59,624 nucleotides of DNA. Source: Planctomycetota bacterium. Lineage in GTDB: Bacteria; Planctomycetota; Planctomycetia; Planctomycetales; Planctomycetaceae. Made by a program: the position numbers and the translations under genes. Below, piece by piece: positions 1,137 to 10,687 of this stretch. How positions within the stretch are numbered: the stretch's first letter is position 1; every line of letters begins with the position of its first letter. The notes under the pieces are model-generated. The model made no database searches and was not told the DNA's origin. It saw only the letters and a program-made list of their open reading frames with translations. Where the stretch lies: NCBI GenBank assembly GCA_027618475.1, contig JAQCEJ010000026.1, positions 1-59,624 on the forward strand, written 5' to 3'.

Positions 1137-2819
1137 CTAGGCTTTCGATCGCTGCTTCACTTCTGAAAACGTCAAACGTTCGTTCATTCCTTGACAATAC
1201 CGCAGCATGCCGTCGTACTCGAAGAGCACGATCGGATTGTCCTCGAGGTCGTAATACAAGCGGGCTTCGCTGGGAATTTTCAGCTCTGCCACATCGGCAG
1301 GATCGCCGGTCACCCAGCGGGCAATCGTCTGCGATAATGGTTGAATGACGGATTTGACTTTGTATTCCGACTCCAGCCGATATTGCACCACGTCGAACTG
1401 CAACTGACCCGCTGCGGCCAGGACAAATTCCTGTGATGAGTTACTCGCCCCGCGCAACAGTGAAATGGCACCTTCCTCTTCAAGCTGTCGCAATCCACGG
1501 TCAAATTGTTTTCGACGGCCGGTATCGTCGCACCGCAGTCTGGCAAAACATTCGAGTGGAAAATCCCATTCGCCGTCGAATTGCAGCGGCGTTCCCTCGT
1601 ACAATGTGTCACCCAACCGCAACTGGCCGGGAATCACCAGTCCGACGACATCCCCGGCATAGGCGACCTCCATCGTTTCTCTTTCACGGGCAAAGAGACG
1701 TTGCGATCGCTTCACGCGAATCTTTTCGCCGGTGCGGGCGTTGACGATCTCCATATCGCGGGCAAATGTCCCCGAACAGACTCGCATAAATGCCACCCGA
1801 TCGTGATGCCGCGGATCGAGATTCGCCTGAATCTTGAACACGACGCCCGAGAACTCGCGACGGGACGGCAATACGGAACCGGTCAGACTGTTACGCGGTC
1901 CGGGGGGGGGACTCAGCTCCAGAAACGCATCAAAAAACGGCTCGATGCCGAAGTTGTTTAACGCACTTCCGAAGAATACCGGCGTGATTTCGCCGGCGAG
2001 AAAGCGATCGCGATCAAACGGTTCTCCCGCTTCGTTCAGTAGTTCGATCTCGTCGCGCAGCCGAGCTGCACTCTCTTCCGAGAGCAATCCGTTGGCGGCC
2101 TCACTCAGCGAACTCTCGTCGACGGGTACCCGCAACGAGCCTCGCTGCGACGGACGAAAAACCATGACGCGATCGTTCGGACGGTCGTACACGCCGCGAA
2201 AATCGTAACCGTTTCCGATCGGCCAATTCAGCGGTACGGCGTGAATGCCAAGCACCGATTCGATATCGCTGAGGTTCTTCAGAGGGTCGCCGCCGGGACG
2301 GTCCATCTTATTGACAAACGTGAGAATCGGAATGCGGCGCTGCGAACAGATCTTGAAGAGTTTGCGGGTCTGAGATTCGATCCCTTTGACAGCGTCGATG
2401 ACCATGACGGCGCAGTCGGCCGCCGTCAGCGTGCGATAGGTATCGCTGCCAAAGTCCTGGTGGCCCGGCGTATCGAGCAAATTGAGTTGAGCGCCGCGAT
2501 AATCGAATGACAAGACCGTCGACGTGATCGAAATGCCGCGCTGTCGTTCGAGTTCCATCCAGTCGGACGTCACCGCCCGCTGAGATTTGCGTCCGCGAAC
2601 GGCCCCCGCTTCGGCGACCGAACCTGAATAGAGCAGCAGCTTTTCGGTTAACGTCGTTTTTCCCGCATCGGGGTGCGAAATAATGGCAAACGTGCGTCGA
2701 CGCTGTACTTCTCCGAGAATTCTGGCAGGGGAAATCAATTCGTCGGCTGCGGCGTCACCAACCGCATCGACGTCGCAAGCGGCGGGTTGATCTTCGTCTT
2801 GCACTTGTGGAATCGACAT
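1137..2819 (-). CDS. prfC: Peptide chain release factor 3 (translational GTPase)
   Basis: RF3 is a cytoplasmic GTPase that releases RF1 or RF2 from the ribosome after peptide release. The GTPase motifs are all visible, counted from the ATG at 2819: G1 SHPDAGKTT (48-56), G2 region with QRGISITS (93-100), G3 DTPGHQDF (116-123) and G4 NKMD (170-173). They are followed by translation-factor beta-barrel domains and the RF3-type C-terminal domain. The product is about 560 residues, slightly longer than the usual 530 because of an acidic N-terminal tail. The open frame extends upstream to 2960, but those 47 residues are rich in Pro, Ser and His and are not RF3-like, so the start at 2819 is preferred. 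Its ribosome site (GAGAAA) is weak. Divergent from the epimerase at 3246. Confidence 0.93.
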   Translation of the reverse strand: MSIPQVQDEDQPAACDVDAVGDAAADELISPARILGEVQRRRTFAIISHPDAGKTTLTEKLLLYSGSVAEAGAVRGRKSQRAVTSDWMELERQRGISITSTVLSFDYRGAQLNLLDTPGHQDFGSDTYRTLTAADCAVMVIDAVKGIESQTRKLFKICSQRRIPILTFVNKMDRPGGDPLKNLSDIESVLGIHAVPLNWPIGNGYDFRGVYDRPNDRVMVFRPSQRGSLRVPVDESSLSEAANGLLSEESAARLRDEIELLNEAGEPFDRDRFLAGEITPVFFGSALNNFGIEPFFDAFLELSPPPGPRNSLTGSVLPSRREFSGVVFKIQANLDPRHHDRVAFMRVCSGTFARDMEIVNARTGEKIRVKRSQRLFARERETMEVAYAGDVVGLVIPGQLRLGDTLYEGTPLQFDGEWDFPLECFARLRCDDTGRRKQFDRGLRQLEEEGAISLLRGASNSSQEFVLAAAGQLQFDVVQYRLESEYKVKSVIQPLSQTIARWVTGDPADVAELKIPSEARLYYDLEDNPIVLFEYDGMLRYCQGMNERLTFSEVKQRSKA

Positions 2820-3245
2820 AGTTTTTCTCGGTGTGAGATGGATAAGTTGCCGGCCAGGTGAAGATGACCGGCGTGAGATCAACCCGAAGGGGAGCGGGAA
2901 ACAATCGTCGTGGTGGAAATCAATCAGCGGGGGAGAATCAGCGAAGGTGGGGGATGACAAAACGGTTCATCGAACAAAAAATCGGTCGTGCTGCTAGAAC
3001 ACCATCAAGCGGTAGCCAACGTTAAAACCTGATTAAACAATGAGTTACGGAACAACAGCACATCGAGGCCCCTCTGGAGATCCGTATTATCTGGTGCGAT
3101 GTCGCCTACGTCAACGTCTTATCGGCTTTTCACGCTCGGTAATTACAATTTGGCAGTCGTCGTGACGATTTCAATCTCGTTCGAGTCAGCATATGATCAC
3201 AAAGGTCGTTTTATACTCATTTCGTCCTTTATTCCGGGTGTTTCG

Positions 3246-4124
3246 ATGATCGTCGTCACCGGTGCCGCAGGTCGATTGGGACGTGCCGTCGTACAACGGC
3301 TGCTCTCTCAAGGTTACGACGTCGTCGGAACGGACATCGTTCCTTTCGCTACATCACCTGTACGGTTTGAACAAGCCGATTTATGCGATCGTTCGGCCGT
3401 CGATCAACTCCTGCGTGGAGCCGAAGCGGTGATACATCTCGGGGCGATACCCGGACCTCGAAAACCGGCGGCGAATTCGACCGCTTCACCCTCGGTCACA
3501 TTCTCAGACGACCCCTTCGTCATATTCGAGAACAATGTCGCGAGCACGTTGAATGTGCTGATGCTGGCGGGTGAACACAAACTTCGCCGCGTGGTATTTT
3601 CATCGAGCGCCTTCGCCATGGGCTGGGCACACGACCCTCGGGCATTCGAACCTCTTTATTTGCCGCTGGATGAAGATCATCCTCCGATGCCGTTTGAACC
3701 TTATGGATTATCGAAACTCGTGGGGGAATGCATTGCCGGTATGGTCGCGAGAACCTCGACAACATCGGTCGTTTCGTTACGGTTTTCCAATGTCGTTCCG
3801 GTCGACCGGCAAGGGGAACTTCCCTGGCCGGCACCAACCCCCGAAAACCCGTTAACGCTGGTGATGTGGTCGTACGCCGACCCGCGCGACGTCGCCGAGG
3901 CACATGTCAAAGCACTGGAAGCAGACATAACCGGCCACGAAGCGTTTTTGATCGCTCAGCCCGTGACCCGTTTTCGTGAATCAACTCGTGAATTGATTCG
4001 CCTCAACTTCGGCAACCGGATCGAAATTCGTGGTGAACTTATCGGAAACGCCAGCATCATTAACTCCTCCAAGGCCGAACGCATGCTCGCATGGAAAGCG
4101 AAATACCGCTGGGATAACCGTTGA
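3246..4124 (+). CDS. NAD(P)-dependent epimerase/dehydratase (extended SDR)
   Basis: A 292-residue extended short-chain dehydrogenase of the NAD-dependent epimerase type. The N-terminal Rossmann fingerprint is MIVVTGAAGRLG (Gly6, Gly9 and Gly12). The catalytic pair Tyr153-x3-Lys157 (YGLSK) and the preceding Ser at 119-121 are intact. The C-terminal half is the shorter substrate domain. Substrate is not predictable; relatives act on sugar nucleotides or sugar acids such as uronate. The open frame begins at 3099, but the first 49 residues are not conserved-looking and the Rossmann strand begins directly at the ATG at 3246, so this start is chosen. It is convergent with the sugar-binding lipoprotein gene, leaving only five bases between the two stop codons. 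Confidence 0.85.
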   Translation: MIVVTGAAGRLGRAVVQRLLSQGYDVVGTDIVPFATSPVRFEQADLCDRSAVDQLLRGAEAVIHLGAIPGPRKPAANSTASPSVTFSDDPFVIFENNVASTLNVLMLAGEHKLRRVVFSSSAFAMGWAHDPRAFEPLYLPLDEDHPPMPFEPYGLSKLVGECIAGMVARTSTTSVVSLRFSNVVPVDRQGELPWPAPTPENPLTLVMWSYADPRDVAEAHVKALEADITGHEAFLIAQPVTRFRESTRELIRLNFGNRIEIRGELIGNASIINSSKAERMLAWKAKYRWDNR

Positions 4125-4129
4125 CCTGC

Positions 4130-5221
4130 TCAAAAACCGAAATCGTACTGGTCAATATTCTCTTTCGTAAATCGGATCGGATCGGAGAGAATGACGGTTT
4201 TTGAATCCTTAGAGCTGAAGACCAGCGGTCGATGTCCCGGATACTCCTGACCGGGTTCGATGGTCTTTCCCTGCACCATTGCAACGGCCAGACGAATGGT
4301 CAGATTCCCCAACTCGCGGGGATCCCACAGGTAGAAACTTTGTAGCACTCCCTCATCAATGTACGGTTTCATCTTGCCGGGGGTCGAATTTCCTGTGAGT
4401 GCGACCAGACCACTCTTGCCCGCCGACTTGATCGCTTCTGCGGCACCGGGAACGGAGTTCGAATCGAATGCTAGAATTCCCTTCAATTGGGGATGAGCGT
4501 TTAACAAGGTCTGCACGCGCTGGCGGGCCAGGTTTTCGTCTTCTTCGGTCACAACCGTGTTGACCAACGTCAGTCTGGGATATTTTTCCAGAGCCCGTGC
4601 TTCGGCAATGCGTCGCCACGAATTGAGGTTATGGGCGTCAAGGCTGGCAATCGCAATCGCCCATTCTCCTTCTTCGCCCATTTGAGCCGCCAGGTCTTCG
4701 ATCAACATATGTCCGAGCACTTCTTCGTCGACTTGTGTGATCATCAAATCGCGTCCGCTCTCTTCTGCGTCGCTGTCCCACGTCAGAAACTTGATGCCCG
4801 CATCATGAGCCTTCTGCACGAAACGCTTCATCGTCTTCGGCTGATTCGGAGCGACACAAATGGCATCAACCTTTTGACGAATCCAGGTATCGATAAATTT
4901 CGTCTGCTCCGATCCACTGTTCTCCGAAGGGCCGTCGTATATCAATTTGACCTTCACACCGTTTGCATTGAGGTCGGCGACCGCTTGCTCTGCACCAACG
5001 CGACACGCTTCGAAATAAGCAATCGTCGTGAGTTTGGGGAGCATGGCAATGACGATCTCGTCATTGCCGGAGGGTGCTTCGGCTGTTGTTCCAGACGACG
5101 ATCCGGCACCCGAGGACGATTTGTTGTCTGGTTCCGCCGATGACCCGCACCCGGCGATCCCCAGCGTACAACAAAGAATGAGGGCCATGCGCCTCGAAAT
5201 GATTGTAAATCGCCAGTTCAT
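4130..5221 (-). CDS. Sugar-type ABC transporter substrate-binding lipoprotein
   Basis: Periplasmic binding protein of the ribose/rhamnose/autoinducer-2 type (Peripla_BP_4 fold). From the ATG at 5221 there is a basic start, a hydrophobic stretch and a lipobox GIAGC with Cys25. A Gly/Ser-rich linker follows, then the two-lobe binding domain beginning IVIAMLPK. The segment AICVAPNQPK and the later TGNSTPGKM are typical of the family. An upstream start at 5371 would add 50 residues before the signal peptide and is not favoured; MALILCC (5188) is another option. No permease or ATPase gene lies near it, so it is an orphan. It follows phoB on the same strand after 171 bases and may have its own promoter. 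The ligand is unknown. Confidence 0.85.
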   Translation of the reverse strand: MNWRFTIISRRMALILCCTLGIAGCGSSAEPDNKSSSGAGSSSGTTAEAPSGNDEIVIAMLPKLTTIAYFEACRVGAEQAVADLNANGVKVKLIYDGPSENSGSEQTKFIDTWIRQKVDAICVAPNQPKTMKRFVQKAHDAGIKFLTWDSDAEESGRDLMITQVDEEVLGHMLIEDLAAQMGEEGEWAIAIASLDAHNLNSWRRIAEARALEKYPRLTLVNTVVTEEDENLARQRVQTLLNAHPQLKGILAFDSNSVPGAAEAIKSAGKSGLVALTGNSTPGKMKPYIDEGVLQSFYLWDPRELGNLTIRLAVAMVQGKTIEPGQEYPGHRPLVFSSKDSKTVILSDPIRFTKENIDQYDFGF

Positions 5222-7461: not shown

Positions 7462-7767
7462 ATGCCGACCCCTCGGCAGAATCAAAGGCCTCCCCTTGTC
7501 GTTGCGATGGAGTGGGTCACACAGTTGACCACCATCTCGCTGGAAATGTCGCTACCGGCAGCCGGCGGTTATTGGTTAGATACGAAATGGGGGACATCCC
7601 CCTGGTTAGTTATTGTCGGAGCGGTGCTCGGTTTTTACGTTGCCATGAAACACCTGATGGCACTCACAAAAACATCAAGCCAAACTCCGGGCCTGAAGCG
7701 GTTTGAACAGACCACACAACGCGATAAGACAACCCAACAGCCTAAAACGAACGACCGGAATGAATAG
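7462..7767 (+). CDS. AtpZ/AtpI-like small membrane protein, first gene of atp operon
   Basis: A 101-residue protein with two membrane helices (about residues 18-40 and 49-70). The pattern ISLEMSLPAAGGYWLDTKWGTSPWLVIVGAVLGF matches the small AtpZ-type ATP synthase accessory proteins ("ATPase gene 1" family) that help F0 assembly or carry divalent ions. The C-terminal tail is hydrophilic and rich in Lys, Thr and Gln. The start at ATG 7462 is chosen because AGAGAGGAG lies about 9 bases before it; an ATG at 7441 sits inside that ribosome site. Its stop overlaps the next gene's start by 8 bases (ATGAATAG), which implies translational coupling. Confidence 0.75.
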   Translation: MPTPRQNQRPPLVVAMEWVTQLTTISLEMSLPAAGGYWLDTKWGTSPWLVIVGAVLGFYVAMKHLMALTKTSSQTPGLKRFEQTTQRDKTTQQPKTNDRNE

Positions 7768-8221
7768 CCTGGCGACCAACTCCGATGCCATTCCTCAGAG
7801 TGAGGCCTCACAAGGTCTGAGTCGTGTCGTTCGGCAATGCCTGGTGCTCACGCTGGGAATCGCTTCCCTCTGGGTGGTGTTGTATTTCCCGGCATCACGC
7901 ATCGCCGGCTCTCGGGGAATCGAAGGACTGACTTACGCCGCTTTGTTGTGCTTGGCTCCCGGTTACATTGCACTCCTGCTGACGCATGTTATGGTTGCCG
8001 CCGGCTCACATGCCGGCAACGGAGCAATGTTATCGACGGCGTTGCGATTGATGGTTGTAGGAATCGCGGTTGTGTTGTTACAGTCGGCCCGTCCAGACTT
8101 ACGCTTCTGGCATTTTCACATCTGGGTGGTGGTGTTTTACGGAGCCGCGTTGGCTTTGGAAACGTGTTTTATCCTGAAAGGAGTCCGCCGCAGTCCGTCG
8201 ACGCCGCAGCAGAGTCATTAA
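7760..8221 (+). CDS. AtpI-like membrane protein of atp operon
   Basis: A 153-residue protein with four predicted membrane helices (about 25-45, 55-80, 90-107 and 117-140). The size, helix number and place directly before atpB fit the AtpI-like family, which helps c-ring assembly, although sequence identity to AtpI is weak by eye. The ATG at 7760 overlaps the stop codon of the previous gene; an open frame from 7703 is in the other gene's coding region. The tail is polar (RRSPSTPQQSH). Function is inferred from position. Confidence 0.7.
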   Translation: MNSLATNSDAIPQSEASQGLSRVVRQCLVLTLGIASLWVVLYFPASRIAGSRGIEGLTYAALLCLAPGYIALLLTHVMVAAGSHAGNGAMLSTALRLMVVGIAVVLLQSARPDLRFWHFHIWVVVFYGAALALETCFILKGVRRSPSTPQQSH

Positions 8222-8294
8222 AGAAGAGTCGTTAAAGAAACTGTTTGCGACCGGCGAGAATATCGGAGGGATGAAAGGGACAACGGGAGCCACT

Positions 8295-9257
8295 ATGGCT
8301 GCAGGACACGAAGACACATTTCATCACGTACGCGATTTTCCGTACTTCGAATTGCCTCAGGGAATTCATATTGATCTTCCCAATATCTTTGGCCTGCAGT
8401 TGTCGAAGTTTATGGTGTTGCAGGTCGTCGCCGGATTACTCACGCTATTGATTTTTAAGGGATTAGCCAAACGAGTGACCAGCGGCGAGCCGGCCACCGG
8501 TGCATGGTGGAATTTTTGGGAAATGCTGGCTCTGTTCGTTCGCGACGAAGTCGTACGACCTACGTTGGGAGCAGGTCACGAACATGGCGAGCATGGTCAC
8601 GACGAACATGGGCACGACGATAGTCACGATCATGATCATGGCGGACATGCCAACAGCCATGTCGGTGCCGGTGCGGCGCATGCCGTGTCTTATGAACCTC
8701 ATGGTGCCACACTCGATGCCGTAGCAGGCCACCCAGCCGATGCGTTTTTACCATACATCTGGTCGTGCTTTTTCTACGTTTTATTTTGCAATCTGCTTGG
8801 AGCCATTCCCTGGATGGGATCGGCAACAGGCAATTTGAATGTGACCGGAGCATTAGCCCTGATCACGTTTGCATACGTCATTTACTGCGGTTCGCAGGTT
8901 TCGGGTTTCGTGGGTTTTTGGAAATCGCTCGTTCCCGGCATGGATTTACCGGGGCCGCTAAAGATTGTACTGATCCCCATGATCTGGGCGATTGAACTGT
9001 TGGGACTATTCATTAAACATGGCGTGCTCGCCGTGCGACTTTTCGCGAATATTATGGCGGGACATACCGTGATCGCCGTGGTACTCGGTTTTATCGCCTT
9101 GTCGGCCCATTCGGGTTGGTGGTACGTGATCACACCTGCAAGCATTTTCGGGCAAGTTGCCATTGGAATGCTGGAATTGTTTGTCGCTTTCTTACAAGCG
9201 TATGTGTTTGCGTTTCTTGCGACGTTGTTTATTTCGGCGGCGGTCCATCCGCACTGA
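8295..9257 (+). CDS. atpB: F-type ATP synthase subunit a
   Basis: Subunit a forms the proton half-channels in F0. The C-terminal part is diagnostic: the essential arginine in LAVRLFANIMAGH, and the last helix FVAFLQAYVFAFLATLFISAA. The product is 320 residues from ATG 8295 (ribosome site CGGGAG, 5 bases); ATG 8271 would add 8 residues but its ribosome site abuts the codon. Odd feature: between the first and second membrane helices, at about residues 95-122, lies a very histidine- and acid-rich insert of 28 residues with 11 His. By E. coli topology this loop faces the cytoplasm. The gene is followed by a 200-base spacer with a hairpin before atpE. Confidence 0.95.
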   Translation: MAAGHEDTFHHVRDFPYFELPQGIHIDLPNIFGLQLSKFMVLQVVAGLLTLLIFKGLAKRVTSGEPATGAWWNFWEMLALFVRDEVVRPTLGAGHEHGEHGHDEHGHDDSHDHDHGGHANSHVGAGAAHAVSYEPHGATLDAVAGHPADAFLPYIWSCFFYVLFCNLLGAIPWMGSATGNLNVTGALALITFAYVIYCGSQVSGFVGFWKSLVPGMDLPGPLKIVLIPMIWAIELLGLFIKHGVLAVRLFANIMAGHTVIAVVLGFIALSAHSGWWYVITPASIFGQVAIGMLELFVAFLQAYVFAFLATLFISAAVHPH

Positions 9258-9447: not shown

Positions 9448-9783
<336 letters not shown>

Positions 9784-10000: not shown

Positions 10001-10687
10001 ATGTTCCCACGATTCGCTCGTAGGAGCGGTCAGCGGACCGCACGTTTTTGTTGGGGAGGCCTGATCGCCTTAGGGATGATTCTGTCTCCTCTGCCGGGGG
10101 TCGGTGCGATGCCGGCTCATGCCTTCGAAACGCATCACGATGCGGGCGGCAGTGACGATCATCACGAGAAGGGAGAGGTGCCGCACGAAAGCGGTCCACC
10201 GCTTTCGTTTCAGACCGATCTCGCCTTATGGTCGTTCGTAACGTTTATCGTTTTTGTGTTTGTGTTAAAGACGTTTGCCTGGGGTCCGCTCTCGAGCGGT
10301 CTGTCGGCCCGTGAAACGCGAATTCGCAGTGACCTCGACGAAGCGGCCGCGGCCCGTCGGGAAGCGGAAAAGCTGTTGGCACAGCACTCGGCTCAAATCT
10401 CGAAGACCAAAGACGAGATCGCCGAAATGATTGCCGAAGCGCGGCGAGATGCCGATGCGCTCAAACAGGATATTCTGACCACGGCACAAAAAGATGCCGA
10501 GGCAACTCGTAATCGCGCCGTGGAAGAGATCAATCGAGCCCGCGATGCGGCGGTCAAGGAGTTATTCGACCACACGTCTCGCGCGGTGATCGATGCCACG
10601 GCACAGATTCTGGGCCGGGCTCTGAATGAAGCCGATCAGGATCGTCTGGTGGAAGAAGCTCTGTCTCAATTCGCGGAACGGAATTAA
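10001..10687 (+). CDS. atpF: F-type ATP synthase subunit b with N-terminal signal peptide
   Basis: Subunit b is the peripheral stalk that holds F1 to F0. From ATG 10001 (ribosome site CAGGAA) the product is 228 residues: a signal peptide (about 1-41, ending MPAHA), a His/Asp/Glu-rich exported segment (45-62), one membrane helix (about 73-92), then the long charged Ala-rich coiled coil (100-228) typical of b, with ATRNRAVEEINRARDAA. The usual b subunit is about 155-170 residues and lacks a cleavable signal. The frame continues upstream to 9857 but that part is not b-like. The stop is 5 bases before atpH, so translation is probably coupled. Confidence 0.9.
   Translation: MFPRFARRSGQRTARFCWGGLIALGMILSPLPGVGAMPAHAFETHHDAGGSDDHHEKGEVPHESGPPLSFQTDLALWSFVTFIVFVFVLKTFAWGPLSSGLSARETRIRSDLDEAAAARREAEKLLAQHSAQISKTKDEIAEMIAEARRDADALKQDILTTAQKDAEATRNRAVEEINRARDAAVKELFDHTSRAVIDATAQILGRALNEADQDRLVEEALSQFAERN

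Follow-up and report, generated by a model that had tools for sequence, protein, structure and literature searches.

Two reports form the closest background to the feature described here, a histidine-rich insert in subunit a (AtpB) of a planctomycete ATP synthase. In one, the histidine-rich tail of ATP6 from the ice worm Mesenchytraeus solifugus was placed in the E. coli enzyme and led to more ATP synthesis (Dunkley, Shain and Klein 2025, cited in PMC12796488). The other concerns Pseudomonas aeruginosa, in which the cytoplasmic channel of the enzyme is capped by a metal, probably zinc, held by four residues of subunit a (aGlu182, aHis186, aAsp287 and aHis289). Mutants of the cytoplasmic mouth or of single ligands lost 25-45% of synthesis with little effect on hydrolysis, and aGlu207Ala lost more than 70%; the authors caution that the alanine changes may directly disturb proton movement (PMC12796488). 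The two reports tie histidine-rich additions on the proton-release side to synthesis. None of the open papers among the matches listed in our literature search dealt with a histidine-rich loop in bacterial AtpB or with planctomycete subunit a.

The atpB locus and its histidine-rich insert

The window (the whole stretch of 59,624 nucleotides analysed here, contig JAQCEJ010000026.1 of a Planctomycetota bacterium) holds an atpB gene at 8295-9257 on the forward strand, encoding a subunit a of 320 residues. Its identity is given by profile searches (161.9 bits against PF00119 with a cut-off of 33.9, and 120.6 bits against TIGR01131 of NCBIfam with a cut-off of 102.6), and it is the only PF00119 match in the genome of the window. 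The mechanical open reading frame begins at 8271; in an alignment, 18 relatives begin at the second methionine, at 8295, which is most likely the start. R248, the conserved arginine of the helix that faces the c-ring, is invariant in 19/19 aligned proteins, as are His 318 and His 320 of the C-terminal HPH (9246-9254, forward strand), and an arginine in the R248 stretch is present in every AtpB row of the loop survey across phyla. Downstream lie matches to PF00137 (subunit c), PF00430 (subunit b) and OSCP (delta), making this an atp operon. The first is atpE (9460-9783, forward strand), with the ion-site motif ALIEG found by motif scan, and the second is atpF (10001-10687, forward strand), for which the start codon was our choice. 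The AtpE N-terminus has a signal-peptide-like stretch ahead of its first helix. Between an AtpI-like gene (PF09527) and atpB there is also a membrane-like open reading frame of 172 residues (7703-8221, forward strand), for which searches of Pfam and NCBIfam at E 0.1 gave no match.

The insert covers residues 93-145 (53 residues; 8571-8729, forward strand), as delimited by alignment with short-loop relatives, and contains 13 histidines and no lysine, arginine or cysteine. Its densest part, residues 94-122 (8574-8660, forward strand), is GHEHGEHGHDEHGHDDSHDHDHGGHANSH, 29 residues with 11 histidines and 8 aspartates or glutamates. When the 320-residue protein was shuffled 20,000 times, the richest window of 28 residues held 10 histidines at most (mean 5.2), and 11 were never reached. 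Ahead of the insert stands an amphipathic helix (model residues 70-91; 8502-8567, forward strand) with the conserved pattern WNFWE..A...RD.VVR, and on its C-terminal side a conserved H-P-A-D leads into a membrane helix (model residues 147-169; 8733-8801, forward strand). From the amphipathic helix to that membrane helix, counted from T to L, there are 63 residues where ordinary subunits a have 9-13. The original prediction had placed a patch of 11 histidines and 8 acids at 8571-8670, between the first and second membrane helices. The composition is as it described, the span is the first part of 8571-8729, and the patch does not follow directly on the first membrane helix (model residues 38-63), as the amphipathic helix intervenes. 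A sequencing or frame error was ruled out as the source of the insert, which relatives also have. A second histidine-rich frame found in the window scan (reverse strand, offset 50762, 10 histidines) is antisense to atpB and an artefact.

The best PDB matches of AtpB, by sequence and by fold, are subunits a of ATP synthases; in a VIA-align structure comparison subunits a scored Z 4 to 6, mixed with unrelated proteins of Z up to 7.1. The monomer model, built with 19 sequences, reached a mean pLDDT of 56.9 and a pTM of 0.44, with residues 94-145 below 50 and the rest moderate. A model this weak speaks for disorder of the insert and yields no geometry, and the insert is accordingly described here as predicted to be disordered. 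In solved subunits a, the connection at the insert site is on the cytoplasmic side. Basic residues are concentrated ahead of the insert (in 71 long-loop rows, a mean of 6.3 lysines and arginines between the first membrane helix and the insert, and 1.6 inside it). Together with the homology to solved subunits a, this places the insert probably on the inner, cytoplasmic face of the membrane, in agreement with the side originally proposed.

Distribution of loops and tails

Throughout the survey a loop was called long at 25 residues or more and a segment histidine-rich at four or more histidines in 28 residues. Outside the phylum the site is short: the loop has 9-11 residues in 30/30 Pseudomonadota rows (the best 30 of 60 matched genomes), 10-11 in 31/31 Chloroflexota rows and 11 or fewer in 13/13 Spirochaetota rows, one of them an incomplete sequence. 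The statement that model bacteria have no such patch thus holds in all of the rows examined from these three phyla. Histidine-rich C-terminal tails occur in 13/31 Chloroflexota rows (12/30 genomes, one protein being present in two loci), and the solved subunit a of Chloroflexus aurantiacus (9itj) has a GHDEEHA-like end; there were none in the 30 Pseudomonadota rows or in the 13 Spirochaetota rows (one incomplete). Sampling was uneven, covering four bacterial phyla and two single genomes, and 5/120, 11/119 and 27/294 genomes in the three samples gave no AtpB match.

Within Planctomycetota, 259 distinct AtpB cores divide into 79 with long loops, 17 with histidine-rich C-terminal tails and 163 with neither, and every one of the 79 long loops is histidine-rich. 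This tally counts distinct cores, whereas in the 204-row tree and the cross-phylum loop survey several loci are the same gene twice. Loop and tail were never found in one protein (0/259); the totals predict about five such cases (79 x 17 / 259), and an independent-pairs test on the tree gave a median p of 1, so that mutual exclusion of the two is not claimed here. Across the survey, short-loop proteins with a histidine-rich tail, for example LEHHDEHGHDDAHHHGNEHAHA, resembling the one reported from the ice worm, include L020/L170, L145, L159, L027, L071, L331, L336, L343, L362 and others. As an internal control, of the 39 C-terminal tails of at least 14 residues, 22 are not histidine-rich, and 18 of those 22 are in genomes of the window's family that hold a second AtpB. 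This second AtpB, of another type and with a tail that is not histidine-rich, was seen in L030-L032, L034-L038, L041, L043-L048, L053, L054 and L056.

When 204 AtpB cores were placed in a tree for which the insert was left out, 59 distinct AtpB of the window's family (f1) fell together (SH-aLRT 95), and the insert is present in all 59. A separate group near this clade comprises 10 distinct short-loop AtpB of the same family. These 10, together with the short loops of most other families, rule out the idea that all planctomycetes have the loop. Other long histidine-rich loops were found in five f23 genomes and one f10 genome, and in a sample of the class they appeared in 14/66 rows (f67, f68, f93, f94, f96, f98 and f99), the other 52 rows having 10-11 residues. 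Counting gains and losses together, the loop changed 3 times on the best 204-row tree and 11 times on the best 270-row tree, and the tail 10 and 11 times, respectively; both trees come from quick searches, many of their branches are weak, and gain is not separable from loss. One locus, L283, was left out of tree building as too short. The 204-row tree alone, in which outgroup rows and second-copy AtpB were limited in number, pointed to three loop origins, and the class sample added more scattered gains or losses. A single origin of the loop is therefore unsupported by the best trees, weak as many of their branches are.

Histidines are also found at other positions. The loop between helices 3 and 4, on the opposite side, has four or more histidines in 0/268 Planctomycetota rows, where it is short, and in 3/31 Chloroflexota rows (2 proteins). 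One Chloroflexota locus, L171, has an AtpB frame of 467 residues with a very long histidine- and glutamate-rich helix 3-4 loop, on the opposite side by homology, and a His/Asp tail. Several AtpB have histidines ahead of the first membrane helix (upstream frames included). AtpF of the window has a signal-peptide-like start and 5 histidines in the 23 residues ahead of its membrane helix (10127-10195, forward strand); in the 30 residues ahead of that helix the median is 3 histidines for 70 long-loop loci and 0 for 167 loci with neither feature, and the histidine-rich AtpF segment is also present in short-loop members of the window's family. A confinement of the histidines to the cytoplasmic side is not claimed here, in view of the Chloroflexota helix 3-4 loops, the AtpB histidines ahead of the first membrane helix and the AtpF segment.

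Across the genome of the window, H-x-H-x-H written as a degenerate DNA pattern matched 28 times (8 times when reversed), and several of the 20 places inspected are in short or implausible frames. Credible other histidine-rich genes encode a ZIP zinc transporter (PF02535, L294), a protein with two histidine-rich stretches and no Pfam match, and a small histidine-rich protein; one further protein resembles DUF1573 in our reading. From these counts and genes, histidine-rich stretches in this genome are uncommon and partly metal-linked. The peptide HDEHGHDD, sought outside AtpB, led to frames in L021, L023, L025 and L026, which are presumably zinc-type binding proteins. In L024, a Bradyrhizobium frame (2812-4932) that resembles NuoL in our reading, another proton-moving membrane protein, carries a comparable His/Asp-rich loop close to its beginning.

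Retention of the histidines and readings of the loop

Among 57 distinct loops of the window's family, length (edges included) ranges from 29 to 82 residues and histidine number from 5 to 19; the commonest start is TIGDGHHGH, and all 57 have an H-x-[AGEDS]-D-like end. Across 11 non-overlapping pairs of close relatives, histidine columns (n=115) showed 66 identical codons, 35 synonymous and 14 changed, and other loop columns (n=206) showed 93, 64 and 49; plain alignment scoring gave 64, 33 and 22 for the histidine columns (n=119). Alignment of low-complexity segments readily pairs histidine with histidine, a bias that is covered by a shuffle control: histidine was kept in 101/115 columns (88%), compared with 58% (49-70%) when one loop of each pair was shuffled. 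The original prediction had named, as the outcome that would count against it, an insert variable in length and with no histidine conservation among close relatives. Length does vary, but histidine is kept well above the shuffles, and most changes in its codons are synonymous. The loop is thus a lineage-conserved, His/Asp-rich segment in which the histidines are retained even as its length changes.

Repetitive, low-complexity segments of variable length can be read as neutral growth by replication slippage, tolerated here in an exposed loop, and a faint repeat of 15 bases (2.2 copies, the one repeat in the loop DNA) is consistent with that. The codons argue against it. Loop histidines are written in mixed codons (363 CAC and 316 CAT), and only 1/9 of the neighbours of a histidine codon are synonymous, so that neutral changes should be mostly nonsynonymous, yet most of the changes observed in histidine columns (35/49) are synonymous. 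Nor would slippage account for a loop in the whole of the window's clade or for a composition common to scattered lineages, and this neutral origin is disfavoured and, in our judgment, very improbable. A role in contact or assembly, with the loop serving the peripheral stalk (subunit b) or F1 as a flexible link or docking site and its histidines incidental to soluble disorder, gains something from the adjoining amphipathic helix and from the conservation of both loop ends; in the structure of the Bacillus PS3 enzyme subunit b touches helices 1-4 of subunit a (PMC6377231). It would, however, leave the histidine-richness of all long loops unexplained, and ordinary enzymes assemble with 9-13 residues at this site, which makes such a role distinctly unlikely as the main explanation.

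Two chemical readings fare better. The loop may bind a transition metal (Zn, Ni, Co or Cu), either storing or sensing it at the membrane or shaping or gating the proton exit. The spacing of the histidines favours this: HxH is enriched over shuffled loops (3.6 vs 2.2 per loop), as is HxxH, and HH is depleted (1.5 vs 2.3). Further points in favour are the zinc-type frames reached through HDEHGHDD, the ZIP transporter among the histidine-rich places of the genome and the metal cap reported from P. aeruginosa, although that site is built from other residues. Against metal stand the lack of a fixed motif or spacing through the loop and the lack of cysteine, and we regard metal binding as somewhat unlikely, if a serious competitor. 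The best reading, held tentatively, is that a disordered His/Asp brush accepts protons as they emerge from the channel into the cytoplasm. With its imidazole and carboxylate groups the loop would form a dense, mobile brush in the cytoplasm, where it would receive protons from the exit half-channel at the c-ring, to be handed on to the bulk or the membrane surface. This hand-off would make turnover easier in the direction of synthesis; per complex, 13 histidines would be added near the stator.

Proton acceptance is preferred to metal binding in part because length and spacing drift while histidine density is kept, as in a buffer; a histidine number that varies from loop to loop, along with the spacing, is easier to reconcile with a buffer than with a single fixed site. 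The composition agrees, with acids common, lysine and arginine rare (mean 1.6 per loop) and cysteine absent from 63 distinct loops, as do the presence of the loop in all 59 clade members and the histidine-richness of all 79 long loops. The effects on synthesis reported for the ice-worm tail and for the P. aeruginosa mouth mutants are further points in favour. The preference also draws on the c-ring. Glutamate followed by serine or threonine (ES/ET) at the ion site marks Na+ types; AtpE of the window has E-G (ALIEG) and lacks ES/ET. Across the survey, the motif is E-G or E-A, never ES/ET, in each of the 82 long-loop loci scored, compared with ES/ET in 24/222 short-loop or tail loci (rows that are related, with 18 loci giving no motif), and the long-loop c-ring motif is as expected of H+ types. 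Counting against proton acceptance are the HxH and HH statistics, which fit metal ligands at least as well, the many thriving relatives with neither loop nor tail (163/259), and the histidines on the other side in some AtpB and ahead of the AtpF helix. The two readings are compatible with each other, sequence does not decide between them, and the loop may tune proton or metal handling where protons leave the enzyme.

A wider proposal, which could well be wrong and is put forward with some doubt, is that of a recurrent "histidine brush": subunit a would have repeatedly gained a disordered His/Asp segment on the proton-release side, a general means of tuning proton release or metal gating at Fo. 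Such a segment could be gained in two ways, as a wider loop ahead of the second membrane hairpin or as a C-terminal tail, and both sites would, as we infer, face the cytoplasm. If this is true, two positions on what appears to be one face, each reached repeatedly, would imply that cytoplasmic proton acceptance is a selectable limit on the ATP synthase. Whether cytoplasmic proton release limits the enzyme is hard to test. The planctomycetes offer a natural series (long histidine loop, histidine tail or neither), some of it inside one family, and this makes the question addressable by swapping or deleting one segment in a laboratory host.

Comparison with known systems

The insert is a known kind of feature at a new position, and an unexpectedly recurrent one. 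With ordinary bacterial subunits a, AtpB of the window shares the fold family, the operon, the conserved arginine region and the C-terminal core, and differs in the 63 residues that it has at a site where they have 9-13. Its histidine runs, alternating with Asp, Glu and Gly, resemble those in loops of proteins that transport or bind zinc (the L294 ZIP protein is one); AtpB, in contrast, is a subunit of a proton channel. The P. aeruginosa cap likewise consists of histidine and acidic residues that subunit a contributes where protons are released, and it is tied to synthesis and not to hydrolysis. It is, however, one site of four ligands, and the planctomycete feature is a disordered loop with 13 histidines elsewhere in the chain. 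The ice-worm ATP6 is also a case of a histidine-rich addition to subunit a, but there a mitochondrial gene encodes it as a C-terminal tail, whereas the planctomycete addition is an internal loop in a bacterial protein. AtpB of the window has no histidine-rich tail of the ice-worm kind (it ends in ISAAVHPH); such tails are present in other Planctomycetota and in Chloroflexota. The loop survey thereby sets two isolated reports, on the ice-worm tail and on the P. aeruginosa cap, within a pattern that extends more widely among bacteria.
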